From the NCBI RefSeq assembly GCF_012396615.1, contig NZ_JAAXPV010000004.1:62001-126000 (forward strand): a DNA stretch of 64,000 bases, given 5' to 3'. This document shows, one piece after another, positions 30,685 to 57,108 of the stretch (positions within the stretch are counted from its first letter, which is position 1; every line of letters begins with the position of its first letter). Made by a program: the position numbers and the translations under genes. Source of the stretch: Rothia terrae (GTDB taxonomy: Bacteria > Actinomycetota > Actinomycetes > Actinomycetales > Micrococcaceae). Under the pieces are notes generated by a model, which was given only the letters and a program-made list of their open reading frames with translations, made no database searches and was not told the origin of the DNA.

Positions 30685-30789
30685 CACATAGGATGCGGGA
30701 TGCCAGCAGTCCCTCTCGCGGATTCGCGTTGGGCGCTCTCCGCGATTCACATTAGCCGCGAGCCAGCTGGCATCCCCGCATACCATGTG
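30685..30789. repeat. Intergenic hairpin element, copy A (long loop)
   Basis: Inverted arms of 23-24 bp at 30685-30707 and 30766-30789 (GATGCGGGATGCCAGC with GCTGGCATCCCCGCAT at the core). The 58-base loop (30708-30765) begins AGTCCCTCTCGCGGAT and ends GAGCCA, with an internal stem CTCGCGG/CCGCGAG. The loop aligns nearly end to end with that of copy B at 56943-57051 (other strand), while the arms do not. See findings. Confidence 0.8.
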
Positions 30790-30813
30790 AACTGGCCGCC
30801 AGCTGAATGAGTA

Positions 30814-30856
30814 ATGCCCCGGCTACTTTTCTCACGTAGCCGGGGCATAATTTTTT
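30814..30856. terminator. Bidirectional terminator between dxr and pflA
   Basis: Perfect 13-bp stem ATGCCCCGGCTAC / GTAGCCGGGGCAT, T-run on the plus side (TTTTTT). Serves dxr and, with A-rich 5' flank, possibly pflA on the minus strand. Confidence 0.88.
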
Positions 30857-30869
30857 ACAGAGAGACGCT

Positions 30870-31736
30870 TTAGTAAACCTCTAGACCGCGTGCGCGGAAC
30901 TGGTCGCGGATGCGTTCAGTTTCTTCTTTCGAGGGCGGCTGGACGTCCTTGAGCTCGTAGTTGATACCCAGGGACTCCCATTTATCGGTGCCCATTTGGT
31001 GAAAAGGAAGAACCTCAACGCGCTTGACCGCATTGGGCCAGCGGCACACAATATCGGCTACTTTCTCAACATTCTCATAAGAATCCGTGTAGCCGGGCAC
31101 AGCTACAAAACGAATCCACACGTCCTTACCCAACGCATTGAGACGGTCACCAAAGTCGATGGTGGGCTGTAACTCGCGTCCTGTGACCTTCTTATAGGTG
31201 TCCTCATCGCCGGACTTCACATCGAGAAGCACCAGATCAACGTAGTCCAAGAACTCGTCGGTGACGGTGCGTCCAAGATACCCCGAAGTATCGATGCAAG
31301 TGTGAATACCCAACGATTTTGCACTAATCAGAAGGTTCTCAGCGAAGGCACGTTGCATAAGAACTTCGCCGCCAGAGATAGTGATTCCGCCGCCGGTTGA
31401 TTTGAAGACCTTACGATAACGCTTGACCTTTTTGAGCAGCTCATCGATCATAATCGGTTTGCCGTCTCGCATCTGAAAAGTATCGGGGTTATGGCAGTAG
31501 ACGCAACGCAACGGGCATCCGTTCATGAACACTGTCATGCGGGTGCCCGGCCCGTCCACAGCGGTTACAAGCTCCCAAGAATGGATGGAGCCGAGCTTAC
31601 CTTCGCGCATCAACTGTAGCTGTGATGAGCGCTCAAGATCGGTCATCTCACCCAAACCCCAGGTGCCAGCCCCGGATTGGCGAGACTCCGGGGGAGCAAA
31701 ATCTTGTTCCCCCGGAGCCTGAACATCAATAGACAT
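30870..31736 (-). CDS. pflA: Pyruvate formate-lyase activating enzyme (radical SAM)
   Basis: 288 residues. Uses a [4Fe-4S] cluster and S-adenosylmethionine to form the glycyl radical on PFL. Radical-SAM motif C-x3-C-x2-C at Cys74, Cys78, Cys81 (CPLRCVYC). Other blocks: TAVDGPGTRMTVFMNGC, GGGITISGGEVLMQ (SAM-binding GGE, about 116-129), DTSGYLGR, LLDVKSGDEDTYKKVTG, RFVAVPGYTD. About 40 extra N-terminal residues compared with E. coli PflA. 9 bp after the separate glycyl-radical gene, so the last of pflB-grcA-pflA. Confidence 0.96.
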   Translation of the reverse strand: MSIDVQAPGEQDFAPPESRQSGAGTWGLGEMTDLERSSQLQLMREGKLGSIHSWELVTAVDGPGTRMTVFMNGCPLRCVYCHNPDTFQMRDGKPIMIDELLKKVKRYRKVFKSTGGGITISGGEVLMQRAFAENLLISAKSLGIHTCIDTSGYLGRTVTDEFLDYVDLVLLDVKSGDEDTYKKVTGRELQPTIDFGDRLNALGKDVWIRFVAVPGYTDSYENVEKVADIVCRWPNAVKRVEVLPFHQMGTDKWESLGINYELKDVQPPSKEETERIRDQFRARGLEVY

Positions 31737-31744
31737 AGATGAAA

Positions 31745-31999
31745 TTAAGCGCCCTGGTGGAAGGTGCGTGAGAGAACGTCCATCTGCTGCTCGCGGGTAA
31801 GGCGAACAAAGTTGACGGCGTAACCTGAAACGCGAACGGTGAGGTTCGGGTAGTTCTCAGGGTTCTCCATAGCGTCAAGCAAGGTGTCCTTGTTCAACAC
31901 ATTGATGTTTGCGTGGTACAGGCCCTTGCTGTCTGCGGGCTTTGCCTCGCGGTTTGCCTTCATTGATGCAAGGCGCTCTTCGTAAGTCTTTACTGCCAT
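31745..31999 (-). CDS. grcA: Stand-alone glycyl-radical domain of pyruvate formate-lyase
   Basis: 84 residues. From about residue 27 on ([20 protein letters not shown]) it is the C-terminal domain of PFL: the radical loop RVSGYA with Gly59, then [18 protein letters not shown]. Residues 1-26 are a charged helix with no equivalent there. E. coli GrcA/YfiD has the same domain and replaces the oxygen-damaged end of an otherwise complete PFL; here the neighbouring PflB lacks the domain completely, so this protein must be an essential subunit. SD AAGAAGG before the ATG; 49 bp after pflB and in another frame, so not a simple broken stop. Gene symbol by similarity. Confidence 0.92.
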
Positions 32000-32048
32000 G
32001 ATATGACCTTCTTTCTAAATGAATATTTTGTGTAAGAACTACTAGAAA

Positions 32049-34163
32049 CTAGTCTTCTTCCGGAACGAATCCGGCGTCCAAGATGCCAACGAGGTTCTTG
32101 ACCTGTTCGTCCTTGGTGCGGCCCAACGCGGTCGGGGTGATCGTGTTGGTCAGCGAGATACCGTCGAGAGCGTCGTCGTAGTCGAGCTTGCCAACGGAGA
32201 GCATTGACGCCACCATGCCGTGGGTGTCTTTGCCGTTCTCGGGGTTTGCACCGGGGGAGAACGGGGTGCCTGCGCGGTGACCTGATGGGAAGTTACCGGT
32301 TGCCTTACCGTAGACAACGTTTGAGGTAATGGTCAGAACCGACTGGGTGGGGATTGCGTCGCGGTAGAGCGGGATTGCCTTGATCTTGCTCATGACGGTG
32401 TGGACGATGGTTGCAGCGATATCGTCTGCGCGGTCGTCGTCGTTGCCGTAGGCGGGGAAGTCGCCTTCGGTCTTGTAGTCAACAATCAGACCGGTCTCGT
32501 CGCGAATGGGGGTTACCTTCGCGTACTTGATAGCTGATAGTGAGTCAGCGACGATTGACAGACCAGCGATGCCACAACCCATTGCACGGATGATGTCTGA
32601 GTCGTGCAGAGCCATCTCGATGGATTCGTAGGCGTACTTGTCGTGGCTGTAGTGAATGATATTCAAAGCCTCAACGTAGGTGCCGATAACCCAGTCAAGC
32701 ATGTGCTCATACTTGTTCCAGACTTCATCGAAGTCAAGGGGACCGTCGCCCGTGATGGGCTCGTAACCCTCAACAACCTGCTTGCCGCTCATCTCATCGC
32801 GTCCACCGTTCATGGCGTACAGCAAAGCCTTAGCAGCGTTGACGCGAGCGCCGAAGAACTGCATCTGCTTGCCGACCTTCATGGGCGATACGCAGCAGGC
32901 GATTGCGGCGTCGTCGCCCCAGTGTTGGCGAATCTGCGGGTCTGACTCGTACTGAATCGACGAGGTTTCGATAGAAATTGCCGAGCAGAATTCCTTGTAG
33001 CCATCGGGCAGGTTCTCGTCCCAGAAGATGGTGATGTTGGGCTCAGGCGCGGGGCCGAGGTTGCGAAGAGTCTGCAGTAGACGGAATGAAGTCTTGGTGA
33101 CTAGGGTGCGACCGTCGTCTGAGAAGCCACCGTCTGACCAGGTTGCCCAGTAGGGGTCACCTGAGAAGATTTGATCGTAATCGATGGTGCGCAGGAAGCG
33201 GGTGATACGCAACTTGATGACGAGTGCGTCGATCATTTCCTGTGCGTCGGACTCGGTGATGGTGCCTTCTGCAAGGTCACGCTCAAAGTAGGCATCCAAG
33301 AAACCTGAGAGGCGACCAATGGACATTGCAGCGCCGTCCTGAGACTTAACTGATGCCAGGTAACCGAAGTAGGTCCACTGAACAGCTTCTTGTGCATTCT
33401 TAGCGGGGCCTGAGATATCAAAGCCGTACTTTGATGCCATGTTCTTCAGGCGCTTGAGGGCCTTGATTTGCTCTGAGTGTTCTTCGCGGTAGCGTGCCCA
33501 GTGTTCTGAGAAGCCCTTGTCGGCCACTGAATCCTTAGCGCGTTCCTTGTCGGCGATGAGGGCATCTACACCGTAGAGAGCTACACGACGGTAGTCACCG
33601 ATGATGCGACCGCGACCGTAAGCATCGGGCAGGCCGGTGATGATGTGTGAAGAACGTGCCGCGCGGATGCGGGGAGTGTAGATATCGAAGACTGCCTCGT
33701 TGTGAGTCTTGCGGTACTCGGTGAAGATTTTCTTAACGTTTTCGTTAGGTTCTTTGCCGGCCTCGCGGATTGCGGTTTCGACCATGCGCCAGCCACCGTA
33801 GGGCATCATAGCGCGCTTGAGGGGAACATCGGTCTGCAAACCAACGATAACGTCGTCGTCCTCTGAAATGTAGCCAGCACCGAAAGCATCAATCTCTGCG
33901 GGGGTTTCGGTATCTACATCGTAAACACGCTGCTTGCGTTCTACGGAGAGGAACTTCTTCTCGAGAGTGTCCCACACACGCAGGGTCTTTTCGGTAGGAC
34001 CTGCGAGGAAGGAAGCGTCGCCTTCGAAGGGGGTGTAGTTCTTGAGAATGAAGTCGCGTACCTCAACGCCGCGCTTCCATTCGCCGTCTGCGAAGTTACG
34101 CCACGCGTCAGCAAACTCGGGACGAATCAACAGGTCTTCGTCGATGTGAGCTTGTGCAGTCAT
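32049..34163 (-). CDS. pflB: Formate C-acetyltransferase lacking the glycyl-radical domain
   Basis: 704 residues with ATG at 34163 (GGAG 11 nt upstream). Converts pyruvate and CoA to acetyl-CoA and formate under low oxygen. The catalytic barrel is intact: YEGDASFLAGPTE-like start, SSIQYESDPQIRQHWGDD, and the active-site Cys-Cys pair in IACCVSPM near residues 422-423. The protein ends at NLVGILDAGFVPEED, exactly before the GQHLNVNV...RVSGYA segment that complete PFLs carry (760 residues in E. coli). That segment is the next gene. Not a frameshift: the downstream gene has its own ribosome site and N-terminal extension. Confidence 0.95.
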   Translation of the reverse strand: MTAQAHIDEDLLIRPEFADAWRNFADGEWKRGVEVRDFILKNYTPFEGDASFLAGPTEKTLRVWDTLEKKFLSVERKQRVYDVDTETPAEIDAFGAGYISEDDDVIVGLQTDVPLKRAMMPYGGWRMVETAIREAGKEPNENVKKIFTEYRKTHNEAVFDIYTPRIRAARSSHIITGLPDAYGRGRIIGDYRRVALYGVDALIADKERAKDSVADKGFSEHWARYREEHSEQIKALKRLKNMASKYGFDISGPAKNAQEAVQWTYFGYLASVKSQDGAAMSIGRLSGFLDAYFERDLAEGTITESDAQEMIDALVIKLRITRFLRTIDYDQIFSGDPYWATWSDGGFSDDGRTLVTKTSFRLLQTLRNLGPAPEPNITIFWDENLPDGYKEFCSAISIETSSIQYESDPQIRQHWGDDAAIACCVSPMKVGKQMQFFGARVNAAKALLYAMNGGRDEMSGKQVVEGYEPITGDGPLDFDEVWNKYEHMLDWVIGTYVEALNIIHYSHDKYAYESIEMALHDSDIIRAMGCGIAGLSIVADSLSAIKYAKVTPIRDETGLIVDYKTEGDFPAYGNDDDRADDIAATIVHTVMSKIKAIPLYRDAIPTQSVLTITSNVVYGKATGNFPSGHRAGTPFSPGANPENGKDTHGMVASMLSVGKLDYDDALDGISLTNTITPTALGRTKDEQVKNLVGILDAGFVPEED

Positions 34164-34661
34164 TGTGCTGATTGCTCCTTTTTCTTCTGTCCGTTGTGCG
34201 GGCATGTGTAGAGGAATATCTTGCTTAAAACACTAGGGGTTCTGAAGGTAAAAATAAAGGCGGAAAGAAATCTTGACAGCCTGTTGTTTTGTTGCTTGAT
34301 TTTTAAAAATATGGCTCTGACTAGTTGTTTTGTAATTTTTTGAGAAGGGTCGCGGTGGAACGTTGAGGGTGCGTACGGAAAAAATATCAAATATGAAGTA
34401 AAGGTTATTTCTACACAAAAAATTGGGTGAAACTGACCTAAACTTTGAGGTGAACATGACCTAAAGTACCTGTGGAATATAGGTCACAGCAGTCTGTAAC
34501 CCGGCTCATAACATTCGCGTATATCAAGCTTTCGCCCCGATGCTATAAAGCTAGTTTTCAGCTGCTCATCTTAGGATGAAAGCTCTGACTCTAGTTCCAC
34601 AGACGCTATGTACTAGAGTATGGCTAGTTAGAAGCGTGAAAACTGAGACCGTAGGGGCGCA
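34164..34661. other. 498-bp divergent control region between pflB and rip1
   Basis: No gene. AT-rich on the pflB side, with several A/T tracts (34290-34350) and no clear -35/-10 pair for pflB. At 34434-34486 sits the triple TGACCTA array. Nearer rip1 there is TATAAA at 34544-34549 and TAGAGT around 34614, both possible -10 elements. The rip1 start codon ATG at 34662 follows GTAGGGGCGCA. Confidence 0.55.
34434..34486. promoter_or_regulatory. Three TGACCTA motifs at exact 23-bp spacing
   Basis: TGACCTA at 34434-34440 and 34457-34463, and its inverse TAGGTCA at 34480-34486; all start points differ by 23 bp. The first two extend to TGACCTAAA. About 270-320 bp upstream of pflB and 180-230 bp upstream of rip1. 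Looks like a multi-site operator; regulator unknown. Confidence 0.55.
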
Positions 34662-36005
34662 ATGGGCATCTTGCTATTTATTATTGGTGTCATCATCATG
34701 GCAGTGGCGATTGGTGCATCGATCGGTTTGCATGAGATTGGGCATCTTGTGCCCGCCAAAAAGTTTGGCGTTCGCGTGCCTCAGTACATGATTGGCTTTG
34801 GTAAAACCCTGTTTTCTGTTCGCAGGGGAGAAACCGAATACGGGTTCAAGCTGATTCCGCTGGGCGGCTATATTTCAATGATTGGAATGTATCCGCCTGC
34901 AAAAACCGGTGAGGGACTGCGCACCAGTACCACCGGCCCCTTTAGTCAGCTCATCGAGGACGCCCGTGCGGTTGACCACGAACGCATCAGCGAAACCGAT
35001 GAGAACAGGGTTTTTTATAAGCTACCCATTTATAAGCGCATCATTATTATGCTGGGCGGACCGGTGATGAACCTACTCATCGGCGTAGTGTGTGTAGCGA
35101 TTTTGATTCTTGGTTTTGGTAGTGCACAGCCCACCACCACGGTGTCATCGGTGAGTCAGTGCGTTAAAACTGTTTCATCGGAGCAGGAGAATAATGCTAC
35201 CGCAGCGTGCGCTGAGAGCGACCCGAAAGCCCCAGCCGCTGCAGCCGGTCTAAAAGCTGGAGATGTGATTACCCGTTTTGCGGGGCAACATATTTCAAGC
35301 TGGAACCAGCTGACCGATGAAATTAAAACTCACGCCAACCAGAGCGTTGAGGTGACCGTGCTTCGTGACGGTAAAACTGAGAACCTCACCATCGAACCGA
35401 TGCTCACTGCGCGTCCTGTTATGAATGAGACGACCGGAACCTATGAGAAAAATGAGGACGGTAGCTACAAGACCACCGATGTTGGCTTTATTGGTGTCTC
35501 CCCGTCAACCGAGCTGGTGCCCGGCACTGCCGGAGATATTCTGCCGACCGTTGGGGAGCAGATGAAGAGCATCTACTCCAGCGTCCTCCGCCTGCCCGCG
35601 CGTGTTTTTGAAACCGCCAGGGTGCTGGTGACGAACGGTGAGCGAGGCGTTAATGGCCCCATGTCAGTTGTGGGTGTTGGGCGCATCGCCGGAGAGATTG
35701 CATCCACCGACCAGATTAATCTCAAAGAAAAAGCAGCCACGCTGGTGTCGATGATTGGCACGCTCAATCTTTTTCTTTTTGCTCTCAACCTTGTGCCGTT
35801 GCTACCTCTTGACGGTGGTCATGTACTCGGCGCGCTGTGGGAAGGTGTTCGTAAGTTGTTTGCGCGCTTGTTTGGGCGACAGAATCCGGGACCGTTTGAT
35901 GCCGCTAAGCTCCTGCCACTGACATTTGTGGTTGCAGGTGCGTTCGGGCTGATGTCGCTGATTCTCATTACCGCAGATATCTTCAAGCCCATTACTTTGC
36001 TGTAG
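34662..36005 (+). CDS. rip1: Site-2 intramembrane metalloprotease (Rip1/RseP-like)
   Basis: 447 residues. Cuts membrane-embedded anti-sigma factors and similar proteins. First helix carries the zinc site HEIGH (His24, Glu25, His28), followed by KKFGVRVPQYMIGFGKTLFS. A PDZ domain sits at about 195-240 (AAAGLKAGDVITRFAGQHISSW), with an extra acidic insertion around 262. Last helices contain the third ligand in LVPLLPLDGGHVLGALWE (about 376-393). Four membrane segments. Usual actinobacterial partner of dxr and ispG. A MOSC gene runs toward it with 25 bp between. Confidence 0.94.
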   Translation: MGILLFIIGVIIMAVAIGASIGLHEIGHLVPAKKFGVRVPQYMIGFGKTLFSVRRGETEYGFKLIPLGGYISMIGMYPPAKTGEGLRTSTTGPFSQLIEDARAVDHERISETDENRVFYKLPIYKRIIIMLGGPVMNLLIGVVCVAILILGFGSAQPTTTVSSVSQCVKTVSSEQENNATAACAESDPKAPAAAAGLKAGDVITRFAGQHISSWNQLTDEIKTHANQSVEVTVLRDGKTENLTIEPMLTARPVMNETTGTYEKNEDGSYKTTDVGFIGVSPSTELVPGTAGDILPTVGEQMKSIYSSVLRLPARVFETARVLVTNGERGVNGPMSVVGVGRIAGEIASTDQINLKEKAATLVSMIGTLNLFLFALNLVPLLPLDGGHVLGALWEGVRKLFARLFGRQNPGPFDAAKLLPLTFVVAGAFGLMSLILITADIFKPITLL

Positions 36006-36030
36006 AAAGCTAAGCCGCGAAATCTAAAAA

Positions 36031-36714
36031 CTAAGAAATGAGCTTCACCAATTGCCGGTGGTGATGCTCCGGCAGACAATGGGCAGCAACGACATCTTGT
36101 GCGATGTTCTTGTTGCCCATTTTTGCCGCGAATACCATACCCATGGTGATCCCGTGCTCAGGTCTATCGTGAAAAACAATGTGGTGCTTGGGTTCGATAA
36201 TTCCAGGTGCGAGAACCCTGGCATATGCCCCGCAGTCACCGTGAGCAGTGAAAGTTTTCACCCAGCCCTGGCGCTCAAGCCACATTGCAAAGGTTCTGCA
36301 TGGCTGTCGTGGCACGCTCACTTCGAGAACGGCTGTGCCTACTGAAAATCGCTGATTGATTAAAACCTCCGACCAGTTCACTCCAACAGTTGTAAGGTTC
36401 TCACCAAACATTCCGTTGGCGTAATTCACGTCCCCTTGCTCAGACCAGAAATCTAGTTCTTCGCGCGCAAAGATATAGACCGCTTTGTCGGCGCCACCAT
36501 GATGCTTTGCGTTGCCCACCAAGTCGCCTTCTACTCCTGACCCGTCACCGTAACGCGGGCCTGGCGCAAAAACGCTAATGGAGTCGACCGCTACCTTGTG
36601 AATCCCGGTGGGGCGATGCGGCTGATCAGGTGCGGGAAAAGGATGCGCGATATTAGTCGACACAATATGAGGGGTGGTTGTTCTTACGGGGGTCTCAAAG
36701 CTCATATACGGCAT
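36031..36714 (-). CDS. MOSC-domain protein, YiiM type
   Basis: 227 residues. MOSC domains bind sulfur or molybdenum cofactor; YiiM-like members reduce N-hydroxylated bases such as 6-hydroxylaminopurine. Visible: GDLVGNAKHHGGADKAVYIFAREELDFW (about 64-91), FGENLTTVGVNWSEVLINQRFSVGTAVLEVS, and the conserved cysteine in RQPCRTFAMW (about 137-146), then a helical C-terminal extension as in YiiM. Inserted between rip1 and ispG on the opposite strand, which breaks the usual tandem. No terminator with a T-run was found. Confidence 0.85.
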   Translation of the reverse strand: MPYMSFETPVRTTTPHIVSTNIAHPFPAPDQPHRPTGIHKVAVDSISVFAPGPRYGDGSGVEGDLVGNAKHHGGADKAVYIFAREELDFWSEQGDVNYANGMFGENLTTVGVNWSEVLINQRFSVGTAVLEVSVPRQPCRTFAMWLERQGWVKTFTAHGDCGAYARVLAPGIIEPKHHIVFHDRPEHGITMGMVFAAKMGNKNIAQDVVAAHCLPEHHHRQLVKLIS

Positions 36715-36843
36715 TGTAAATGTGCCTGTGGTGAAAGAGTCGTAGCTTCGTCTTCTTAAAATCGAGCTAACTGGTGCACAATAGAAGTTGACTCAATACG
36801 TATGCTTTGTGGCTACGTATAAAAATACTTTTGGAGGAACGCT

Positions 36844-38007
36844 TTGACCTCGGTCAATCTAGGAATGCCTGCACCCCCGCCGCCCGTTCTGGCACCGCGT
36901 CGTAAGACTCGCCAGTTCAACGTTGGTTCAGTTGGCGTTGGCTCAGAATCGCCCATTTCAGTGCAGTCAATGACTACCACCAAAACTCACGATATTGGTG
37001 CTACTTTGCAGCAGATCGCTGAGCTCACCGCAGCCGGTTGCGACATTGTTCGCGTGGCATGCCCCACCGATAAGGACGCAGAGGCTCTGCCTATTATCGC
37101 TCAGCAGTCACAGATTCCTGTCATTGCTGATATCCACTTCCAGCCCAAGTACGTTTATGCTGCTATTGAAGCTGGATGCGGCGCTGTGCGCGTTAACCCC
37201 GGTAACATTCGTAAGTTCGATGACCAGGTTAAAGAAATCGCACAGATGGCTAAAGACCACGGCACCTCAATCCGCATTGGTGTGAATGGCGGTTCTTTGG
37301 ACAAGCGTTTGCTGGAAAAGTACGGACGCGCTACCCCCGAGGCTCTCGTTGAGTCTGCTGTGTGGGAGGCATCCTTGTTCGAAGAACACGGCTTCCACGA
37401 TTTCAAGATTTCAGTCAAACACAATGACCCCGTCGTCATGGTTGAGGCATACCGTCAGCTGGCAGCAGCCGGCGACTGGCCCCTGCACCTGGGCGTGACT
37501 GAGGCTGGCCCCGCCTTCCAGGGCACCATCAAGAGCTCCACCGCATTTGGCGCTCTACTCTCTCAGGGCATCGGCGACACCATCCGCGTCTCGCTGTCTG
37601 CACCTCCCGTTGAAGAGGTCAAGGTTGGTTCGCAGATTCTCGAATCTTTGAACCTGCGCCCGCGCAAGCTCGATATCGTTTCTTGCCCCTCATGCGGTCG
37701 CGCTCAGGTGAACGTTTGGGAGCTGGCAGAAAAGGTCACCGAAGGTCTTGAAGGCATGAAGGTTCCGTTGCGCGTAGCCGTTATGGGTTGCGTTGTAAAC
37801 GGTCCCGGCGAAGCACGCGAAGCAGACCTCGGCGTCGCATCCGGCAACGGTAAGGGACAGATCTTCGTCAAGGGCGAAGTTATCAAAACCGTTCCCGAAG
37901 ATCAGATCGTCGAGACCCTGATTGAAGAAGCTAACCGTATTGCTGGCGAGATGGAAGCAAGCGGCGAATACGTTCCCGAAGGCTCTCCGTCAGTTAACAT
38001 CAGCTAA
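36844..38007 (+). CDS. ispG: 4-hydroxy-3-methylbut-2-enyl diphosphate synthase
   Basis: 387 residues. Iron-sulfur enzyme of the MEP pathway that turns MEcPP into HMBPP. N-terminal TIM barrel: [67 protein letters not shown]-terminal cluster ligands: [11 protein letters not shown] (two Cys, about 282-292) and [12 protein letters not shown] (third Cys about 319, Glu about 326). TTG start at 36844 with GGAGGA upstream. Followed 39 bp on by a GNAT gene, as in mycobacteria. Confidence 0.97.
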
Positions 38008-38046
38008 TACGCATTTTCATTCATCGCAGAGGCCACCGGCACATCT

Positions 38047-39132
38047 ATGAAATCTACACCTACGCGGTCGCAGACCGTCAGCATTCGTCCGCTCACTCAT
38101 GAGCACCGGCAACAGCTGTGTAGATTGATAGATCGTGACCCGGTGGCCTCTGTTTTTAGCGCCGAACACTTAGCGAAGTTCGGTTTACCCGATGCTCAAA
38201 GGGCAACACGTATGCGTTCGCCTTTTGGTTTTATGGGGATTTTTGAAGCACCGAACGATGCTGCGGCTCCGGCAGAAAACAGCGCACTGGCTTTGGGGGC
38301 AGCTATTCCTCGTGCTTTACGTCAGATGGCTCAAGTGTTTGCGCGTCCTCTCCCTTTCTCGCCCGAATCTGTGGTGAATACTCAGGACGCTCCTGCCGAT
38401 TCCATCGCGCCAGTTGAAGAAAAGCTGGTGGGTGCTTTCTGGCTGGGCGGAAACTGCGTCCCGGTGGATATTCCTGAGCAGTATATTCCCGATGTAGCGG
38501 CCTTTATTTCTCAGCATCATCGTCAGATCGCATCTATCTTTGGTGCGGCAGATACCGTACTGCCGCTGTGGGAAAAAGCAGAACCCGCCTTCAAAAATGT
38601 GCTCGATATTAGGGCACAACAACCACTCTTATACCTTCCGCCGCAACGAAGCATCAGCCACTCACGCGACCTTTACCGCCAGGGCTTGCCCGCACCTCAG
38701 ATCTCTAAGGGCGTGCGCTTTGCCCGAGAGTCTGACAACAAGACCTTGCTGCAAGCATCCGTAGCAATGTTCACCGAAGAAGTGGGCTACGACCCGATGA
38801 CTCGCGATTCTATCGGCTATACGCGACGCGTCCACGATTTTATTGCCGAGCGCAGAACCGTAGTGGCAGTCAACGCCGAAGACGTTGTCGTCTTCAAAAC
38901 CGATGTGGGCATCGCAGCTGGTGACGTCTGTCAGCTTCAGGGAGTCTGGTTACACCCTGCTTATCGTGGCTTTGGGCTTTCCGCCCCATTGCTTGTTCAG
39001 GCCTGTGAGCTGTTACGGCCTCGGTATCCCCACATCAGCTTGTACGTGAATGACTACAATGTGCGAGCCCGCGCGCTCTATGCCCGCGTAGGTTTTGAGC
39101 AAGCAGATACTTTCGCCACCGTCCTCTTTTAG
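38047..39132 (+). CDS. GNAT acetyltransferase with DUF4081 (Rv2867c-like)
   Basis: 361 residues. The N-terminal part (about 1-190) corresponds to the DUF4081 region found before a GNAT fold in actinobacteria; the C-terminal GNAT domain shows VCQLQGVWLHPAYRGFGLSAPLLVQACELL (acetyl-CoA loop, about 298-327) and SLYVNDYNVRARALYARVGFEQ. The same gene stands after ispG in mycobacteria (Rv2867c), which supports the assignment by position. A poorly conserved insertion at 60-110 (EAPNDAAAPAENSA...) is rich in Ala/Pro. Substrate unknown. Confidence 0.87.
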   Translation: MKSTPTRSQTVSIRPLTHEHRQQLCRLIDRDPVASVFSAEHLAKFGLPDAQRATRMRSPFGFMGIFEAPNDAAAPAENSALALGAAIPRALRQMAQVFARPLPFSPESVVNTQDAPADSIAPVEEKLVGAFWLGGNCVPVDIPEQYIPDVAAFISQHHRQIASIFGAADTVLPLWEKAEPAFKNVLDIRAQQPLLYLPPQRSISHSRDLYRQGLPAPQISKGVRFARESDNKTLLQASVAMFTEEVGYDPMTRDSIGYTRRVHDFIAERRTVVAVNAEDVVVFKTDVGIAAGDVCQLQGVWLHPAYRGFGLSAPLLVQACELLRPRYPHISLYVNDYNVRARALYARVGFEQADTFATVLF

Positions 39133-39424
39133 TTGTAGGTAGTTTAGTTGTTTGAAACGCAAAAATATTTACAGCAATAAAGGCACATTACCTTCCTCGT
39201 AAAACTAAAGTTAAGATGTAGAACTACGAGGTAAAAACACTTTTACCGAACCACTATTACCGAACCACTCATTTTCCAATCGATAAAGTACCTAGTGATA
39301 GTTGATTACATTTCACTTCTACAGCGAATTGGATCTACATCTATATCCCCGTTTCCTCAATAGCCTTTTTGAGTCGTGACACCATAGATGTATGAGTCTG
39401 TGCGTTCACACAGCAAGAGGAAAA
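39133..39424. other. AT-rich spacer with a 14-bp tandem repeat
   Basis: 292 bp, no gene. TTACCGAACCACTA (39243-39256) is followed directly by TTACCGAACCACTC (39257-39270). Left of it TTACC-TTC-CTCGTA (39190s) and TACGAGGTAAA (39225-39235) are near-inverse. Probably the promoter region of the secreted protein; operators are likely but unproven. Confidence 0.5.
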
Positions 39425-43427: not shown

Positions 43428-43453
43428 ACCTTCCCGTATAGATTCATAGGCCA

Positions 43454-43485
43454 GACCCCGGGTTCGAAGGAACCCGGGGTCTTTT
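43454..43485 (+). terminator. proS terminator
   Basis: Perfect 12-bp stem GACCCCGGGTTC / GAACCCGGGGTC followed by TTTT. Confidence 0.95.
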
Positions 43486-43519: not shown

Positions 43520-43590
43520 CTGAAAGAGGCACGCCAGCTGACTTCCCTTGAACGCAAGCTATGAGCCAGTTGTTTGGCGAGTCCCCTCTA
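43520..43590. repeat. Intergenic hairpin element, copy D (short loop)
   Basis: Arms CGCCAGCTGAC (43532-43542) and GTTGTTTGGCG (43569-43579) pair over 11 positions if G-U pairs are allowed (one mismatch), and pairing continues outward. The 26-base loop starts TTCCCTTGAACGCAAGC and ends GAGCCA; it matches the loop of copy C at 50832-50858. Lies in the 240-bp gap before the TauE/SafE gene. Confidence 0.7.
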
Positions 43591-47804: not shown

Positions 47805-47813
47805 AGGAGAAAT

Positions 47814-50720: not shown

Positions 50721-50742
50721 GCCTAAGACTTTGACTCGTTAG

Positions 50743-50784
50743 GGTGTGGGCTGGCACAGCAGGTGCCAGCCCACACCTATTTTC
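50743..50784 (+). terminator. infB terminator
   Basis: Perfect 15-bp stem GGTGTGGGCTGGCAC / GTGCCAGCCCACACC followed by TATTTTC. Confidence 0.93.
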
Positions 50785-50796
50785 AATTAATATCCA

Positions 50797-50894
50797 GAGT
50801 GCACATTGTAGAGAGACGCCGCTACGTCGGCTTCCCTTAAACGCCAGCCCCGATGCCAGCCGACTAGGCGGCATCCCTCCAACGCTGTGTACTC
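50797..50894. repeat. Intergenic hairpin element, copy C (short loop)
   Basis: Inner arms GCCGCTACGTCGGC (50818-50831) and GCCGACTAGGCGGC (50859-50872), extended outward by GAGTGCACA (50797-50805) against TGTGTACTC (50886-50894). Loop of 27 bases (50832-50858) starts TTCCCTTAAACGCCAGC and ends GATGCCA, like copy D. It lies between the infB terminator and rbfA. Confidence 0.75.
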
Positions 50895-50963
50895 ATACCA
50901 CGTGAGATTTTTACTAGTTGGTAAACTGGTGAGCAGACTAATTTTCATCAAAAGGAGAACATC

Positions 50964-51407
50964 ATGGCTGATGCAGCACGTGCCGCACGACTTGCGGACC
51001 GCATTAAGGTAATTGTCGCTCAGGCGCTGGAACGCCGTATCAAGGATCCCCGCCTGGGATTTATCACCGTGACCGATGCGCGCGTTACGAACGATTTGCA
51101 GCACGCAACGGTTTACTACACCGTGTACGGTAGCGAAGAAGAGCAGGCATCAACTCGCGCTGCTCTGGAATCAGCTAAGGGCATTTTGCGTTCAGAGGTT
51201 GGTAAGAACATCACCGCTCGTTTGACCCCGACTCTGACTTTTGTTGCTGACGAGGTTCCTGTGAACGCCGCTCACCTTGAGGACTTGCTACGCAAAACCC
51301 GCGAACGCGACGCGGAGCTGGCCGCAGCGTCAGAGGGTGCTCAGTACGCGGGCGATGCTGATCCTTACAAGAAGGCTGACGAAGAAGACGCCGAGGAACA
51401 GGCTTAA
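50964..51407 (+). CDS. rbfA: Ribosome-binding factor A
   Basis: 147 residues. Helps 16S rRNA maturation and cold adaptation. KH-like fold: RLADRIKVIVAQALERRIKDPRLGFITVTDARVTNDLQHATVYYTV (broken here by domain only) with the typical DPRLGFITVTD at about 29-39 and TPTLTFVADE. The acidic C-terminal tail (about 115-147) is non-conserved. SD AAAGGAG before ATG. truB starts 3 bp after its stop. Confidence 0.96.
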   Translation: MADAARAARLADRIKVIVAQALERRIKDPRLGFITVTDARVTNDLQHATVYYTVYGSEEEQASTRAALESAKGILRSEVGKNITARLTPTLTFVADEVPVNAAHLEDLLRKTRERDAELAAASEGAQYAGDADPYKKADEEDAEEQA

Positions 51408-51410
51408 ATT

Positions 51411-52487
51411 TTGGCGAAGAAAACACCTGAGGGTCCTTCCGGTCTGGTTGTTATTGATAAGCCTGCGGGTATGACGAGCCACGATGTGGTCTCGCGTATG
51501 CGCCGGCTTGCTGGCACTCGACGTGTAGGGCATGCAGGCACGCTTGATCCGATGGCTACCGGCGTCCTCATTCTTGGCGTCAATAAGGCGACTAAGTTGC
51601 TGACGTGGGTGGTAGGGGAGTCAAAAACCTATACCACCACTATCCGTTTGGGCTTGGGAACTATCACCGACGATGCTGAGGGCGATGTAATAAGCGTTGC
51701 CGATTCGGCACGCGTTGAGAGCATCACCGAGCAGTGGATCAAGGACGCCAGCGCCCAGCTGACCGGTGAGATTATGCAGGTGCCGTCGTCGGTATCGGCT
51801 ATCAAGGTTGACGGTGTGCGTTCGTACGCGCGCGTGCGTTCGGGGCAGGAAGTGAAGCTTGAGGCTCGTCCCATTACGGTTGATGAGTTTTCTATCGAGT
51901 CCGTGACGCGCAAGGTAGTGGAGGGGCCTGAGCATATTGTCGATATGACGGGTGAACCGGTTGAAGGTACTGAATTGCCGGCACAGGCATCGGTGATTGA
52001 CGTTGAAGCTACCGTTTCGTGTTCCTCAGGTACGTACATTCGTGCCTTGGCGCGAGATCTTGGCGCAGCGCTGGGTACTTCGGCTCACCTGATAGCACTG
52101 CGACGCACTCGTATTGGAGAGGTTGAGGTAGCGAGCGCTGCTACCTTGGAACAGTTGCAGTTTATTAAGGATCGAGCTCCTGATCAGCCGCTACCGATGC
52201 TGTCATTAGAGGACGCAGCTCGTAAGTTATTTGGTAGCCGCGCGTTGAGCGGTGCAGAAGCTACGGATATTTCAAACGGGCGTCGCATCACTCCCACCGA
52301 TAATGGTGGGGAGTCTGAGACACCTGCGGCTAAGAGCAAACATGCCAGCACCGCCGGTATCAGTGCGGCATTTGCTCCCGACGGAACCCTCGTGGCGCTG
52401 ATTGAAAATAAGAAGTGGCGAGGACACCTGGTGGCAGCGCCCGTGCTTGTTTTTGAATCTGGCAAAACTTTTGGAGAAAACTCATGA
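51411..52487 (+). CDS. truB: tRNA pseudouridine-55 synthase
   Basis: 358 residues. Makes the pseudouridine of the T-loop of tRNAs. SGLVVIDKPAGMTSHDVVSRMRRL (about 6-29), catalytic Asp in GHAGTLDPMATGVLILG (about 38-54), and GTYIRALARDLG (about 205-216). TTG start at 51411, immediately after rbfA, hence translational coupling. C-terminal part contains a PUA-like domain with a variable stretch (about 280-315). Its stop overlaps the start of the next gene by 4 bp. Confidence 0.96.
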   Translation: MAKKTPEGPSGLVVIDKPAGMTSHDVVSRMRRLAGTRRVGHAGTLDPMATGVLILGVNKATKLLTWVVGESKTYTTTIRLGLGTITDDAEGDVISVADSARVESITEQWIKDASAQLTGEIMQVPSSVSAIKVDGVRSYARVRSGQEVKLEARPITVDEFSIESVTRKVVEGPEHIVDMTGEPVEGTELPAQASVIDVEATVSCSSGTYIRALARDLGAALGTSAHLIALRRTRIGEVEVASAATLEQLQFIKDRAPDQPLPMLSLEDAARKLFGSRALSGAEATDISNGRRITPTDNGGESETPAAKSKHASTAGISAAFAPDGTLVALIENKKWRGHLVAAPVLVFESGKTFGENS

Positions 52488-52858
52488 TGATTGCAGGACT
52501 CGATTTGTGGTTCTGGATTTGTGTAGTGCTCGGAACAGTGTCGACTGTTATTTGCGTGATTCAATTTTTGCGCGGAGTGGCAGCGGACGACTGGTCGCAG
52601 GGCTCGATTATCGTCTTGCAGGGTTTCTTGATGGTCTACTTTGTAGGTTCAATCATCATGCAACTTGTGACCGATGGTCCTAAGGGCGACTGGCTTGAGT
52701 ACTACGGGTACCTGCTGACCGCCATGATTATTCCAGCGGGCACGCTCACATGGTCACTTTCGGAACGCACCAAATGGTCAACACTAGTGCTGGGCGTCAC
52801 CGGACCTGTTCTGATCATCATGGTTCTTCGCATGAACCAGCTGTGGTACTACTACTAA
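52484..52858 (+). CDS. Small membrane protein of unknown function
   Basis: 124 residues, start ATG in the ATGA overlap with truB. Four hydrophobic helices (about 6-28, 42-62, 75-93, 98-118) with a Trp/Tyr-rich C-terminus (MNQLWYYY). No cysteine pairs or catalytic motif. Coupled to the truB-ribF segment, which in many actinobacteria is uninterrupted, so a lineage-specific insertion. Not recognised. Confidence 0.75.
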   Translation: MMIAGLDLWFWICVVLGTVSTVICVIQFLRGVAADDWSQGSIIVLQGFLMVYFVGSIIMQLVTDGPKGDWLEYYGYLLTAMIIPAGTLTWSLSERTKWSTLVLGVTGPVLIIMVLRMNQLWYYY

Positions 52859-52911
52859 AAACAGCTCACCTCTTTGCTTTACCACACCATCATCTTGTGA
52901 AAGGTACTTTC

Positions 52912-53322
52912 ATGGCTGAACACGCCAAAAACCGAGGCTTTGGTCGCCTGCTGGTTGTTATCTACGCTGTCTTTTCGCTCTCTGCTACAGCCCGCGCGCT
53001 ATACCAGGTGCTCCGTAAGTTCGATCAGGCACCGCTGTCTATCAGCCTCTCGGCTGTCTCAGCCATCATTTACATTGTGGCAACCGTGGCCCTTGCAAAA
53101 CGTGGCGTCAACGCGTGGAAGCTCTCTTTAGCCGCTGTGTCTACCGAAATGGTGGGCGTCCTGCTCATCGGAATTTTCTCGTTCGTGCGCCCCGACCTCT
53201 TTGAGATTGCCTCGGTCTGGTCACACTTCGGCTCAGGCTACGGCTACATACCGCTGATTCTGCCGATGGTCGGACTGTGGTGGCTAAACCGTACCAAACC
53301 AGCCACCGCCCACACCGCGTAA
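52912..53322 (+). CDS. Small membrane protein of unknown function, second copy of this layout
   Basis: 136 residues with ATG at 52912 (AAAGG upstream). Four membrane helices (about 10-30, 42-62, 72-95, 107-127), basic at both ends. The topology resembles actinobacterial proteins annotated as integral membrane protein next to truB/ribF. The open frame runs 162 bp further up, inside the previous gene, but has no start signal. No function proposed. Terminator follows. Confidence 0.75.
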   Translation: MAEHAKNRGFGRLLVVIYAVFSLSATARALYQVLRKFDQAPLSISLSAVSAIIYIVATVALAKRGVNAWKLSLAAVSTEMVGVLLIGIFSFVRPDLFEIASVWSHFGSGYGYIPLILPMVGLWWLNRTKPATAHTA

Positions 53323-53334
53323 TTTGTTGCTCAA

Positions 53335-53367
53335 CCCGCGTCCTGCAATGATCAGGACGCGGGTTTT
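53335..53367 (+). terminator. Terminator before ribF
   Basis: Perfect 11-bp stem CCCGCGTCCTG / CAGGACGCGGG followed by TTTT. Confidence 0.93.
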
Positions 53368-53447
53368 ACGTTGTAGAAAGCTAAACTTTAGGGGCAAAAG
53401 CGTTAGGCGCGTTAGGATAGATACGTCCCACTACTTCAAGGAGAACA

Positions 53448-54407
53448 GTGCAACGCTTCACCGAGCTTGAGCAGATTCCCACCGACTTTGGCCCCAGCGT
53501 GGTTACGGTAGGAAACTTTGACGGCGCGCACGTAGGGCACACCCGCGTCATGGAACGGGTGGTACAGATTGCGCGCGACAACCAGCTGGCGTCCGTGGGT
53601 GTCTCTTTCGACCCGCATCCGGCGGTGGTGCACAACCCTAACGTCGATCACGTTGAGATTATGGGGCAAGAAGATCGTCAGCGCTTCTTTGAAGACATGG
53701 GCCTTGAGAACTACGTCCTGTTGCACTACGACTTAAAATTCGCCTCACAAACCCCTGAAGAGTTTGTCAAAAATGTGTTCGTTGATGCCTTGCACGCACG
53801 CTGGGTTGTCATCGGCGACGACGTGCGGTTTGGTTACCGGAATTCCGGTGACCTCAACACCATGATTGAGCTCGGCAAAAAATACGGGTTTGAGGTAGAA
53901 GCGGTGGAAGACCTGACGCACGAGTCTCAGCGTCGCTGCTCTTCTACCTGGATTCGTGAGCTTCTGACCGACGGAAAAGTTGATGAGGCAGCCCAGATTC
54001 TTGGCCGTAACCATCTGATGCATGGAGAAATCGTACACGGTGCTGCCCGCGGTCGCGAGTTAGGGTTTCCCACTGCGAATATGAGCTTTGACTCAGACGG
54101 TTTTGTGCCGGCTGACGGTGTTTACGCCGGCTGGCTTACCGACGCGCACGGTAACAAGTGGCCGGTGGCAACGTCCATTGGCACCAACCCCACCTTTGAG
54201 GGCGTGGAGCAGCGTCAGGTGGAGTCATTCGTTATTGGACGCCCCGAAGAACGCGTTGAAGACTTCAACCTCTACGGTCAACGCGTTATTCTCGAGTTCG
54301 TCCAGCGTCTACGACCGATGGTGGCTTACCGCGGAGTTGAAGCGCTTATCGAGCAGATGAACCAGGACGTTGAACAAGCAAAAGAAGTGCTGGGGCTTAC
54401 TGCATAA
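53448..54407 (+). CDS. ribF: Bifunctional riboflavin kinase/FAD synthetase
   Basis: 319 residues. Makes FMN then FAD. N-terminal nucleotidyltransferase domain: VVTVGNFDGAHVGHTRVM (about 19-36), FDPHPAV (about 55-61), FGYRNSGDLNTM and SQRRCSSTWIRELL; C-terminal kinase domain: GRELGFPTANM (about 202-212), DGVYAGWL, SIGTNPTFEG (about 240-249) and an intact acidic helix. GTG start at 53448 with AAGGAG upstream. In many actinobacteria between truB and rpsO. Confidence 0.96.
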   Translation: MQRFTELEQIPTDFGPSVVTVGNFDGAHVGHTRVMERVVQIARDNQLASVGVSFDPHPAVVHNPNVDHVEIMGQEDRQRFFEDMGLENYVLLHYDLKFASQTPEEFVKNVFVDALHARWVVIGDDVRFGYRNSGDLNTMIELGKKYGFEVEAVEDLTHESQRRCSSTWIRELLTDGKVDEAAQILGRNHLMHGEIVHGAARGRELGFPTANMSFDSDGFVPADGVYAGWLTDAHGNKWPVATSIGTNPTFEGVEQRQVESFVIGRPEERVEDFNLYGQRVILEFVQRLRPMVAYRGVEALIEQMNQDVEQAKEVLGLTA

Positions 54408-54444
54408 CAGCCAATGCTTATCCCAGGTCATACCTGTAAACGAA

Positions 54445-54530
54445 CGCAGAGGGTGGCAAACTGGCATGAATTATCCCGTAAGCGAATCGCATCGGTCGAG
54501 AAGGAATGCTGAGTCGCCAGCTACGTTTGT
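54445..54530. repeat. Possible divergent copy F of the hairpin element
   Basis: Read on the minus strand: ...CAGC-ATTCCTTCTCG...ATTCATGCCA-GTTTGCC..., so the loop begins and ends like those of copies A-D. Its arms pair poorly (GGCAAAC with GAGTCGCC region). Assigned only by similarity at the loop ends. Confidence 0.4.
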
Positions 54531-54590
54531 CTCGCTATGTTTGCGCAACGATTTCAAGCTCTAACCAATAAACCTCACTACACGTATCTA

Positions 54591-54628
54591 CAAAAGCGGG
54601 GTGCTTCCATGAAAGAAAGCACCCCGCT
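54591..54628 (-). terminator. Terminator of the luxS-mtnN-AKR operon
   Basis: Perfect 12-bp stem AGCGGGGTGCTT / AAGCACCCCGCT; on the minus strand it is followed by TTTTGT. Confidence 0.9.
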
Positions 54629-54710
54629 GTTGCGGTGTTACTCAACGAAGCTTGGCGCAAACCTTTGTGGGAGGTTCGCCAGCTGACGGATAACGCCTCA
54701 ATCTCGCCCG

Positions 54711-55538
54711 CTACATCTCCTGATGCGTGCGCGGATCAAAACCGGAGAAGCTAATGCCGGTATGCAACATCTTGATGCGATTCATCTGCTCTTCAGTCAG
54801 CTCCCAATTAAACAGCTGCAAGTTCTCAACCTGACGCTTATCATTGGCAGTCTTAACAATCGGCAAGATATTGGACTGTACATTCCATCGCAAAACTACC
54901 TGCGCTGGCGTGCAACCGGTTTCGCGGGCAATATCCTTAATGACATCATGATCGAGTACATCTTTACCCCGACCCAGAGGTGACCACGCCTGAGTAACGA
55001 TAGCGTTTTGCTGGTGATACTCACGCAGTTTTTCCTGCTGGTAAGCGGGCTGAACCTCAACCTGATTAACCGCGGGAGTCTCACCGGTTGCATCCTTCAA
55101 AGCCTCGATATGTTCGGGCAAGAAATTGGAGACACCAATAGACTTGACTAATCCTGCATCGCGAAGTTCAACCATGGCGCGCCACGTATCCACAAACTTA
55201 TTGTTCATGGGGTTAGGCCAGTGAATCAGGTACATATCCACATAATCTAGACCCAGGCGTTCCAAAGATTCCTGCAACGATGCTTTAGTGGTCTCGTAAC
55301 CGTGATGACGGCCAGGAACCTTCGTTTGCACAAAGAGGTTGCTACGATCTGCGCCGCTGAACTTGATACCGCGTCCGACACCGATTTCGTTCTCGTAGTT
55401 CACTGCGGTATCAATCAGACGCCAGCCATTGAGGATGGCCTCAGAGACATGGACTTCTGCCTCAACGTTCTTCAACGGGTAGGTACCAAAACCAACGGCA
55501 GGGATTTTATGACCGTCACGAAGGGTATGTTCAATCAT
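54711..55538 (-). CDS. Aldo/keto reductase, AKR5-like
   Basis: 275 residues. NADPH-dependent reductase of aldehydes or ketones (2,5-diketogluconate and glyoxal reductase group). VGFGTYPLK at the start, catalytic set Asp and Tyr in IDTAVNYENEIGVGRG (about 42-57), Lys in FVQTKVPG (about 68-75) and His in LIHWPNP (about 103-109); SIGVSNFLPEHIEAL (about 135-149) and the NADP region ILPIVKTANDKRQVENLQ. Its ATG overlaps the mtnN stop by 8 bp, so it is translated with it. Detoxification of ketones formed from AI-2 precursors (DPD) is a possible link, inferred from the neighbours. Confidence 0.92.
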   Translation of the reverse strand: MIEHTLRDGHKIPAVGFGTYPLKNVEAEVHVSEAILNGWRLIDTAVNYENEIGVGRGIKFSGADRSNLFVQTKVPGRHHGYETTKASLQESLERLGLDYVDMYLIHWPNPMNNKFVDTWRAMVELRDAGLVKSIGVSNFLPEHIEALKDATGETPAVNQVEVQPAYQQEKLREYHQQNAIVTQAWSPLGRGKDVLDHDVIKDIARETGCTPAQVVLRWNVQSNILPIVKTANDKRQVENLQLFNWELTEEQMNRIKMLHTGISFSGFDPRTHQEM

Positions 55539-56313
55539 CGTTTTCTTCTCTCAACCAGTGAGTTTCTGACTGCACTAAGCGCGCAATCAGAGCTGTAGAA
55601 AGCTGAGCTGAGCGTTCAGAGACAATCTCGCCAGCCATATGGAAGTCCTGGTCAGCGGCAGGTCCGCACAAATCTGAGATACCGCGGATCGCAATAAAAG
55701 GAACCTCACGCGATGAGGCAACCTGGGCAATAGCGGTGGTTTCCATGTCGGTCGAAATAGCCTGGGAGAAAATCTCACGGGTGTCTTTCACATTGTGCGC
55801 GGTGACGAATGAACCACCGGCAAGCATGGTGTCAACGAAAACATTGCCCTCGCCCTGATAATCAGCGGCAACTTCGCGAGCTACCTCTAACAGCTCAGCT
55901 GAGGTCGAGTACTTCTCCGGCATGCCGGGCACCTGACCGCGAACATAACCGAAAGCCGTCGCATCCGCATCGGTGTAGGTGTAATCCAAACCAACAGCAA
56001 GGTCACCCACATTAATGTCCTGACGCAGACCACCTGCAGTACCAGCAGAAATAACGACGCGCGGGTTGGGCACGAGTTCCAACGCCACGGTGAAAGCAGT
56101 TGCCGCGTTCACCAAACCGATTTTTGAGCGCACCAGCAAAAGCGGCACATCAGAGTTCTCAAGTTTCAGCGTACGCGGATAATAGTGAGCTTCACCCACC
56201 ATGAAATCCTGAGCCGCTACCTCGGTTTTATCGAGAAACGGACCAGCTTCTTCATCCATCGCTACTTGAACGATAACGCCGTTCTCAAAACCGGTCAGCG
56301 CCTGATGCGACAC
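55531..56313 (-). CDS. mtnN: 5'-methylthioadenosine/S-adenosylhomocysteine nucleosidase
   Basis: 260 residues from GTG 56313, which overlaps the luxS stop (TAGTG) and has AAAAGG upstream; GTG 56334 is an alternative. Removes adenine from S-adenosylhomocysteine and methylthioadenosine, giving the LuxS substrate S-ribosylhomocysteine. Family: VAMDEEAGPFL (acid Glu, N-term), VISAGTAGG (about 83-91), DMETTAIAQVA (about 188-198) and the catalytic Asp in IRGISDLCG (about 212-220). Second gene of luxS-mtnN-AKR. Confidence 0.93.
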   Translation of the reverse strand: MSHQALTGFENGVIVQVAMDEEAGPFLDKTEVAAQDFMVGEAHYYPRTLKLENSDVPLLLVRSKIGLVNAATAFTVALELVPNPRVVISAGTAGGLRQDINVGDLAVGLDYTYTDADATAFGYVRGQVPGMPEKYSTSAELLEVAREVAADYQGEGNVFVDTMLAGGSFVTAHNVKDTREIFSQAISTDMETTAIAQVASSREVPFIAIRGISDLCGPAADQDFHMAGEIVSERSAQLSTALIARLVQSETHWLREENDD

Positions 56314-56786
56314 TACGCCATCACCTTTTCCCACTCGCTACGACCAGCTAGGAAGGTGCGAACAGCGTCCTGAGCTTCTTCCAAAGAGTGGTTAGCGCCC
56401 CACCCGCACTGAACCTCGTTAGCAGCGGGAACCTCGGTCGCTGACAGAAGATCGTTCATAGAAGCCTCAAGCACGGGCAAGAAGTCTTCAAGCTCTAGAC
56501 CCAAAGTCAGAGCGTAGAAACCCGTCTGGCAACCCATGGGGGAGAAGTCAATGAGCGCATCGGTATGGTTACGCATGTGGTGAGCAGTCATGTGCTCAAT
56601 GGAGTGTACAGCCTTCATGCCCAAGTGACCCTTGTTGGGCTGGGTAAAGCGCACATCGTACTTAATCAGCACATCGCCACCGGGCAAGGTCTTACGATCT
56701 GCTACACGCACGTAGGGTGCAGCAACAGCGGTGTGGTCGAGATCGAATGACTCAACATTGGTCTTGTCTTTAGAGAAGTTTTCCAT
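56313..56786 (-). CDS. luxS: S-ribosylhomocysteine lyase (AI-2 synthase)
   Basis: 157 residues, the usual size. Splits S-ribosylhomocysteine to homocysteine and DPD, the precursor of autoinducer 2. Metal ligands: His61 and His65 in HSIEH and a Cys in [19 protein letters not shown] supplies the catalytic cysteine. ATG at 56786 with GGAG just upstream. Placed before mtnN in an operon, so the two steps are made together. It may serve the methyl cycle only; AI-2 signalling is not proven by the gene. Confidence 0.96.
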
Positions 56787-57108
56787 GTCTCCATTCTTTC
56801 GCAGAACCACAGTGTTTGCTAGTGCGGCATACCTTTCACGCTGACAGCGTGTTTTAGGCAACTATTCACAGAGCGGGTTTAGAGTTGAGAGTGAGAACAA
56901 CGCTGGTACAAGCTGTGCACCACCGGATGCGCTGAAAATAGGCGGTAATCACGCACTATTGCCTGCTGGCGTCGGGACTGGTGTGAATCGCAGATCGAGC
57001 GCCCCGCGCGAGATCCGCGAGAGGGACTGCAGGCGATTGCGTGATTGCCGTACCAGCCCAGACTACGCAGATATTTTGTACTGGCACCACAAAAGAAAGG
57101 TATCGATT
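56787..57108. other. 322-bp divergent region with hairpin element B
   Basis: Between luxS and a divergent small membrane protein. 56943-57051 is the hairpin element copy B; the left 150 bp hold the luxS promoter side, where no consensus -10/-35 is obvious. No gene. Confidence 0.6.
56943..57051. repeat. Intergenic hairpin element, copy B (long loop)
   Basis: Arms CGGTAATCACGCACTATTGCCTGC (end at 56966; shown here in halves as CGGTAATCACGCA and ..GCCTGC) and GCAGGCGATTGCGTGATTGCCG (57029-57050, given as GCAGGC..TGCGTGATTGCCG). On the minus strand its loop starts AGTCCCTCTCGCGGAT and ends GACGCCA, 62 bases, and is co-linear with the loop of copy A. The arms have no similarity to those of A. Confidence 0.8.

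Follow-up and report, generated by a model that had tools for sequence, protein, structure and literature searches.

The stretch analyzed here (hereafter the window) comprises 64,000 nucleotides of the genome of Rothia terrae (contig NZ_JAAXPV010000004.1, positions 62,001 to 126,000) and contains four hairpins, designated A, B, C, and D, which an earlier inspection of the sequence (the original prediction) had interpreted as a dispersed intergenic family with a conserved loop and with stem arms that, though unrelated in sequence from copy to copy, remained self-complementary. All four hairpins were found where that prediction had placed them, between the genes listed in Table 1, and they belong to a dispersed repeat family with tens of copies, a conserved core, and free arms, which family proved to be wider than had been claimed. 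In the wider set a predicted open reading frame, probably a spurious one, extended over 18 of the 110 copies.

Table 1. Copies of the element in the window, their neighboring genes, and adjacent features (window positions; for the copies, the strand is the one that folds; E values refer to the covariance model R2 described in the text).
Feature	Position	Strand	Description	Neighboring genes
Copy A	30685-30789	minus	Long form; core 30699-30774; E 1e-14	dxr (+, 29334-30650) and radical-SAM gene (-, 30870-31736); convergent pair
Copy B	56943-57051	plus	Long form; core 56958-57037; E 2.8e-16	luxS (-) and a gene for a small protein (predicted; no match in Pfam; +, 57109-57417); divergent pair
Copy C	50797-50894	minus	Short form, without inner hairpin; E 7.7e-4	infB (+) and a gene (+, 50964-51407) that we take, from its protein, to be rbfA; intergenic
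Copy D	43520-43590	minus	Degenerate short form, weak stem	class-II tRNA synthetase gene with editing domain (+), presumably proS, and TauE-family gene (+); intergenic
Intrinsic terminator beside copy A	30815-30857	+	G+C hairpin followed by a T run; outside the element	
Terminator-like hairpin beside copy C	50743-50777	+	Perfect 15 bp; outside the element	
Intrinsic terminator beside copy D	43453-43485	+	G+C hairpin followed by a T run; outside the element	
Actino-pnp RNA	59643-59712		Rfam RF01688	

As had been stated, A and B share an exact 15-mer, which word occurs three times in the genome versus none for the same pattern read backwards; in the window alone, and with up to three mismatches, two occurrences were found against 1.66 expected, a difference that is not significant. 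When copy A was used as a blastn query against the source genome (G000), 43 matches were obtained at E ≤ 10, of which 24 could be aligned as long-form copies, and a covariance model built from 21 copies of that genome only (R1) gave, with 150 of 1330 candidates scored, at least 48 matches at E ≤ 1, at least 34 of them at E ≤ 1e-5. The pattern common to C and D, with up to three mismatches, was present at 39 places in the genome versus 12 for the reversed pattern; 14 genome places were treated as copies of a short form—the core without the inner hairpin described below—and 11 of these had paired arms. In the window, a second model (R2, which includes four sequences found by R1 in the genus g68, considered below) recovered B, A, and C, the next-best match having an E of 0.73, and copy D was missing from the 14 matches obtained at E ≤ 5. 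In three spacers of the source genome (G000:C9:41150-41439, G000:C2:99194-99308, and G000:C1:260656-260845) two or three elements are packed together, and in one of those instances the core of one element forms an arm of another.

The family could not be assigned to any known one, in agreement with the original prediction: Rfam gave three matches above the gathering threshold in the window, none of them at A-D, no match above that threshold at 16 element loci, and sub-threshold matches only when two single copies were searched at E ≤ 10. Titles and abstract openings in the literature contained no description of such a family, which result, with subscription papers mostly outside the scope, is weak evidence of novelty.

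When folded, one strand of the element consists of a long outer stem (P1), a two-sided conserved core, and an inner hairpin (P2/P3), arranged as P1 - UGGC(A)UCGGGGCUGGCGUGAA - P2/P3 - GAGAGGG(A/U)C - P1'. On that strand the 5' part of the core has the consensus UGGC-(A)UC-GGGG-CUGGCG-UGAA, and the 3' part GAGAGGG(A/U)C. The strand that folds is thus opposite to the one originally assumed, and the center, which had been described as a loop, contains a second, covarying hairpin. Beyond the inner bases that the copies share, the arms of a copy pair with each other at a median of 27.8 versus 9.4 when the arms are swapped between copies in the long form, and of 35.2 versus 11.7 in the short form, with single swapped pairs reaching 38 and 47. 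Subfamilies have their inner arms in common; and in one of them, of 48 copies, identity drops to about 0.3-0.4 roughly 20-30 nt outward from the core.

The mismatches in the arms are unevenly distributed: counted over arm positions 1-26 in 34 copies of the source genome, G.T mismatches numbered 45 and A.C mismatches 10 on the folding strand. The structured form is therefore a single strand, of either RNA or DNA. That count was made without L043, L006 (which is copy D), L009, L013, L022, L050, L053, L058, and the copies that R1 found later. A less favorable count, reaching into the noise past the stem, gave 65 G.T versus 39 A.C for the long form and 32 versus 31 for the short form, so that no bias was present in the latter; and in 99 copies from other Rothia genomes the numbers were 150 and 88. 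With RNA parameters, the chosen strand is the better folder in 151 of 154 copies (22/24, 98/99, 12/12, and 19/19 in the individual sets), and with DNA parameters in 152 of 154 (23/24, 99/99, 11/12, and 19/19). The proposal that C and D share a shorter loop needs to be qualified: a short form without the inner hairpin does exist, but D is a degenerate member whose weak stem, with 8 A.C versus 6 G.T mismatches, does not follow the strand bias.

As for the inner helix, 490 of 630 cells at P2 positions 1-5 were Watson-Crick pairs in 126 distinct P2-P3 segments, versus 313 ± 8.7 when the partners were shuffled, and the mismatches at those positions were 35 G.T and 13 A.C (39 and 24 over all seven positions). 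In a 34-sequence alignment, the structure for which was drawn from those same sequences, all six P2 pairs exhibited two-sided change, and the whole-structure covariation score reached 0.350 versus 0.156 ± 0.014 in shuffled alignments and 0.07-0.12 in slid pairings, which result upholds the earlier expectation of covariation above chance. By weaker measures, there were 15 pairs with two-sided change versus 12.2 ± 1.3 (24 of 500 shuffles gave at least as many) and 42 further pair types versus 36.5 (7 of 500 shuffles). P3 had the form GAGC...GCGA in 114 of the 126 segments. The heptamer GCGAAGC, a very stable mini-hairpin as DNA, was present on the folding strand in the P3 of 16 of the 126 segments and its complement in none, and was connected also with the inner arms of a Rothia nasimurium subfamily. 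In many copies, though not in those with a GAA loop, the inner loop may pair with the CUGG of the core, the CUGG side being nearly invariant. As proof of selection the P2 covariation is weakened, because template switching has been reported in stems as short as P2 (PMC8794818).

Further copies, as the original prediction had anticipated, were found well beyond the source genome. In the survey of the genus at most 80 candidates were scored per genome, and the match counts given are lower bounds: at E ≤ 0.01, R1 had matches in 20 of the 35 Rothia genomes—15-70 in each of 17 (including G024, whose 30 matches were counted uninspected) and one or two in each of the other three—and in none of the 24 genomes taken from other genera. 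The carriers cluster on a pnp tree that covers 30 of the 35 Rothia genomes, with 3 changes versus 10.1 in shuffles. The closest relative of the source genome, G007, is 87% identical to it at pnp; and in terms of matches the source genome has 37 and G007 a single, degenerate one, as G030 has 27 and G004 one. In 396 genomes of the order, R1 matched once in each of four genomes of g68, a genus belonging to a family other than that of Rothia (E 3.2e-7 to 1.4e-5). With R2, at E ≤ 0.01, 14 of those 396 genomes and 7 of the 109 genera matched, Rothia among them; outside Rothia, g68 had 2-9 matches in each of six genomes, g19 and g62 matched in one genome each, and in three weak genera (E 0.0046-0.007) the matches viewed contained the core and paired arms. 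A class-wide search of 394 genomes at E ≤ 0.001 matched the source genome and G143 alone. The element is spread, then, over several genera. In g68 the copies have the inner arm in common and the next 10-14 nt are variable yet largely paired, while boxes like GGAGCG and GCGACC lie outside the stem in most of the copies viewed.

Some isolated matches deserve mention. In a distant genus, L372 (G176, positions 1501-1542) is a short-form-like hairpin (E 0.0046) with the core UGGCCGGGGCUGGCGACGGAAAC and paired arms, and the single contig match outside the Micrococcaceae, L191, is in an Acidobacteriaceae bin. On viral contigs, 20 pattern matches were taken as chance, none of those viewed having the core with paired arms; and a distant blastn search gave no match in plasmids and phages.

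The comparison of orthologous sites revealed both the presence and the absence of the element. Sites A-D are all empty in G007. At site C, a short copy occupies the same spacer in the same orientation in G000, G017, G033, G012, and G028; the cores of G000 and G017 have a single difference in 27 places, while their arms are unrelated. The 5' arms of G000, G017, and G033 pair with their own partners at 36, 43, and 43 versus 12.5-21.5 with those of the others, and the G012 arm, with 27.5 for its own partner versus 26.5 for that of G000, has no such preference. The spacer of site D is occupied in G017, too, by a short copy with the orientation unchanged.

For the R. nasimurium group, flank tags were taken from nine of 13 sites, and eight of these nine were compared, in four to seven genomes each. 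Five of the eight (S171, S176, S195, S197, and S235) were empty in some strain, the full sites being 126-193 nt longer than the empty ones, and S124 retained remnants in two strains. Among the six sites with a standard core in at least two strains, four (S171, S195, S197, and S124) had that core in opposite orientations in different strains, and two (S176 and S165) did not. Since at S124 and S171 the flanks are common and the inner arm bases are changed on both sides, an inversion plus a compensatory change in place is the simplest reading there. At S235 the same arms surround a standard core, an extended core, or an inverted extended core, depending on the strain. The extended core (L318, L317, and L294; G021 and G012) is a longer relative with nested hairpins found in both orientations, and eight genomes each contained 25-51 blastn matches to it, either full or partial. 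S169 resembled a possible inverted duplication of target DNA at insertion, but different strains have different types of element there. Insertion into existing hairpins was considered and set aside: S176 fits, the empty site of G028 being itself a hairpin, and the other empty sites have no clear fit.

Because cores are inverted between close strains, the arms change together, and template switching can bring about such changes, two-sided change in the arms loses force as a mark of selection. The original inference of a selected structure stands on the strand bias, the inner helix, and the core conserved across genera, but not on the two-sided arm change, which by itself is no proof.

Our best explanation of the whole, to which we assign a probability of about 0.42, is that the copies are small mobile hairpins of a non-autonomous kind, which have the habit of REP sequences but are not REP. 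The explanation starts from what was observed above—the number of copies and their structure, the strand bias, sites that are full or empty, cores in opposite orientation, in-place arm change, and spread over several genera—and, of the possibilities originally raised, a hairpin-type mobile element is the one that the full and empty sites in close relatives support. The core, held by a stem of indifferent sequence, would be recognized as a folded single strand by a trans-acting factor, which factor would move the unit; template switching would copy one arm from the other, and sometimes flip the core, so that the arms might stay complementary while their sequence changed; and the sites 3' of genes would survive because the element would do the least harm there. 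The distribution of the 110 copies, with 44 between convergent genes versus 6 between divergent ones, is in keeping with this explanation. Template switching accounts for arms that are paired and yet unrelated without a separate compensatory step each time. What it leaves unexplained is the strand bias tied to core orientation together with a core kept in several genera, and for this reason we favor the reading of a mobile hairpin with a recognized core.

Several observations weigh against that explanation. No mobilizing gene was found, the Y1 transposase being without a match in the source genome and present in three of the 35 Rothia genomes, and among the copies viewed none carrying a gene was noticed, no systematic search having been made. 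The alignments of full with empty sites give no clear junctions, so that neither the ends nor target duplications could be delimited. Site C, orthologous-looking across four lineages, speaks for long persistence and not for a fast turnover. Strains with opposite cores have different outer flanks at S195 and S197, so that separate insertions could account for the opposite orientation there; nine other orthologous sets keep their orientation, in a search blind to the opposite one. Finally, a replication-strand preference was rejected because the signs of the GC skew relative to the folding strand disagree between copy sets: positive signs were obtained for 63 of the 99 copies in other Rothia genomes, 8 of 19 in other genera, and 9 of 25 and 5 of 14 in the source genome.

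If the copies were transcribed, they could instead constitute a structured RNA family whose core binds a protein or a metabolite, or self-cleaves, the dispersal being secondary. An unpaired conserved core, covarying variable helices, and a G.U-tolerant strand are typical of RNA families, and the covariation in P2, the better folding of the chosen strand in nearly all copies, and the core conserved between genera fit such a picture. Against it stand the lack of any Rfam match; the similarity that, by eye, with no motif search made, stops with the arms and leaves no common promoter-like flank; and the tolerance of opposite core orientations between strains. The genomic context argues in the same sense. 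Raw counts obtained with a simple gene picker, orthologous copies being kept and no background expectation applied, placed 44 of 110 copies between convergent and 6 between divergent genes, 22 beside co-directional genes in the sense and 33 in the antisense direction, and 5 in an undetermined context; among the antisense are C and D, whose folding strand is antisense to their neighbor genes. We consider this RNA account rather unlikely.

The copies might also be neutral palindromes, that is, old hairpins kept paired and flipped by template switching and gene conversion with no structural selection. The opposite cores and concerted arm changes between close strains would be expected from such a process, as would changes in stems as short as P2. 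The process would not by itself maintain a core across genera nor a strand bias relative to that core, and at site C the single difference in the core between G000 and G017 contrasts with arms that are unrelated. Furthermore, the rRNA survey (Monttinen and Löytynoja, 2022; PMC8794818) reports 69 inversions of the loop only, which class was enriched, whereas the combination of a stem change with an inversion was rare, with 6 cases, and not enriched. Neutral palindromes are therefore, in our judgment, an improbable explanation of the family.

We regard as very improbable that the elements are bidirectional terminators or stabilizers of RNA 3' ends. The 44 copies between convergent genes and the short A/T tracts at the ends of some arms would agree with that role; but the 8 nt after the 3' arm contain a mean of 2.25 T, barely above the 1.9 expected from the T content of the window, and at least four T are present there in 17 of 95 copies, so that the T tract of an intrinsic terminator is lacking; on this low T content a main role as terminator was rejected. 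In addition, A, C, and D each adjoin a terminator-like hairpin of their own (Table 1), and a terminator would have no need of a conserved core. Least probable of all is a protein-binding DNA site for nucleoid organization, segregation, or repair, read as a duplex or cruciform, since—despite the dispersal of the element, its occurrence in either orientation with respect to genes, and its retention at one site in several species—duplex binding would give no asymmetry of G.T over A.C, and in the sister genome G007 there is but one match, a degenerate one.

Returning to the mobile hairpin, we propose, more tentatively than the explanation itself, that the family represents a strand-specific class extending across several families of one order, with stems rewritten wholesale by template switching, so that the form would persist without any memory of the stem sequence, and with a core that is perhaps an active RNA or the single-stranded-DNA substrate of an enzyme. 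When the arms of a stem covary, the structure is commonly regarded as proven to be under selection; and a family offering hundreds of hairpins, close strains, empty sites, and oppositely oriented cores would allow the covariation made by mutation to be separated from that made by selection. The family likewise points to an undescribed mobilizing activity, for whose gene the sister pair G000 and G007 would be a suitable place to look.

With respect to known systems, the REP hairpins have a conserved GTAG-type tetranucleotide alongside. REP and REPIN sequences are described as small palindromes, present in many copies and mostly between genes, and are regarded as non-autonomous (PMC3116915, PMC8049555, PMC8266576). 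The Rothia element resembles these sequences and their association with TnpA_REP (RAYT) in also being a small, intergenic, multi-copy hairpin, but differs in that its stem sequence is free and its center conserved. A mobilization of the REP type was rejected on the results given above for the Y1 transposase (PF01797), control matches with that family having been obtained in 5 of 14 genomes; the Y1-family transposases present in Rothia lie at G029:C21:956-1318, G012:C14:6759-7121, and G002:C2:276257-276619.

With the miniature inverted-repeat transposable elements (MITEs), ERIC, BOX, and NEMIS the element has in common a short, dispersed, inverted-repeat unit with full and empty sites. The ends of MITEs are conserved terminal repeats, whereas in the Rothia element the ends vary the most and the middle is fixed, and conserved terminal inverted repeats are lacking; nor has either a parent transposon or a target duplication been established for it. 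The attC sites of integrons are a folded single strand and combine a variable sequence with a conserved structure, as does the Rothia element, but their ends are conserved and their tip is variable, which arrangement is the reverse of the present one. The hairpins subject to template switching, finally, resemble the element in their mode of change: in rRNA, template switching is reported to create and repair stems and to invert loops (PMC8794818), and the concerted two-sided stem changes and the loop inversions have their counterparts here. In that instance, however, a mutation process acts in rRNA upon inverted loops of typically 4 nt, while in Rothia cores of about 50-60 nt are found in opposite orientation within a repeated, mobile unit.

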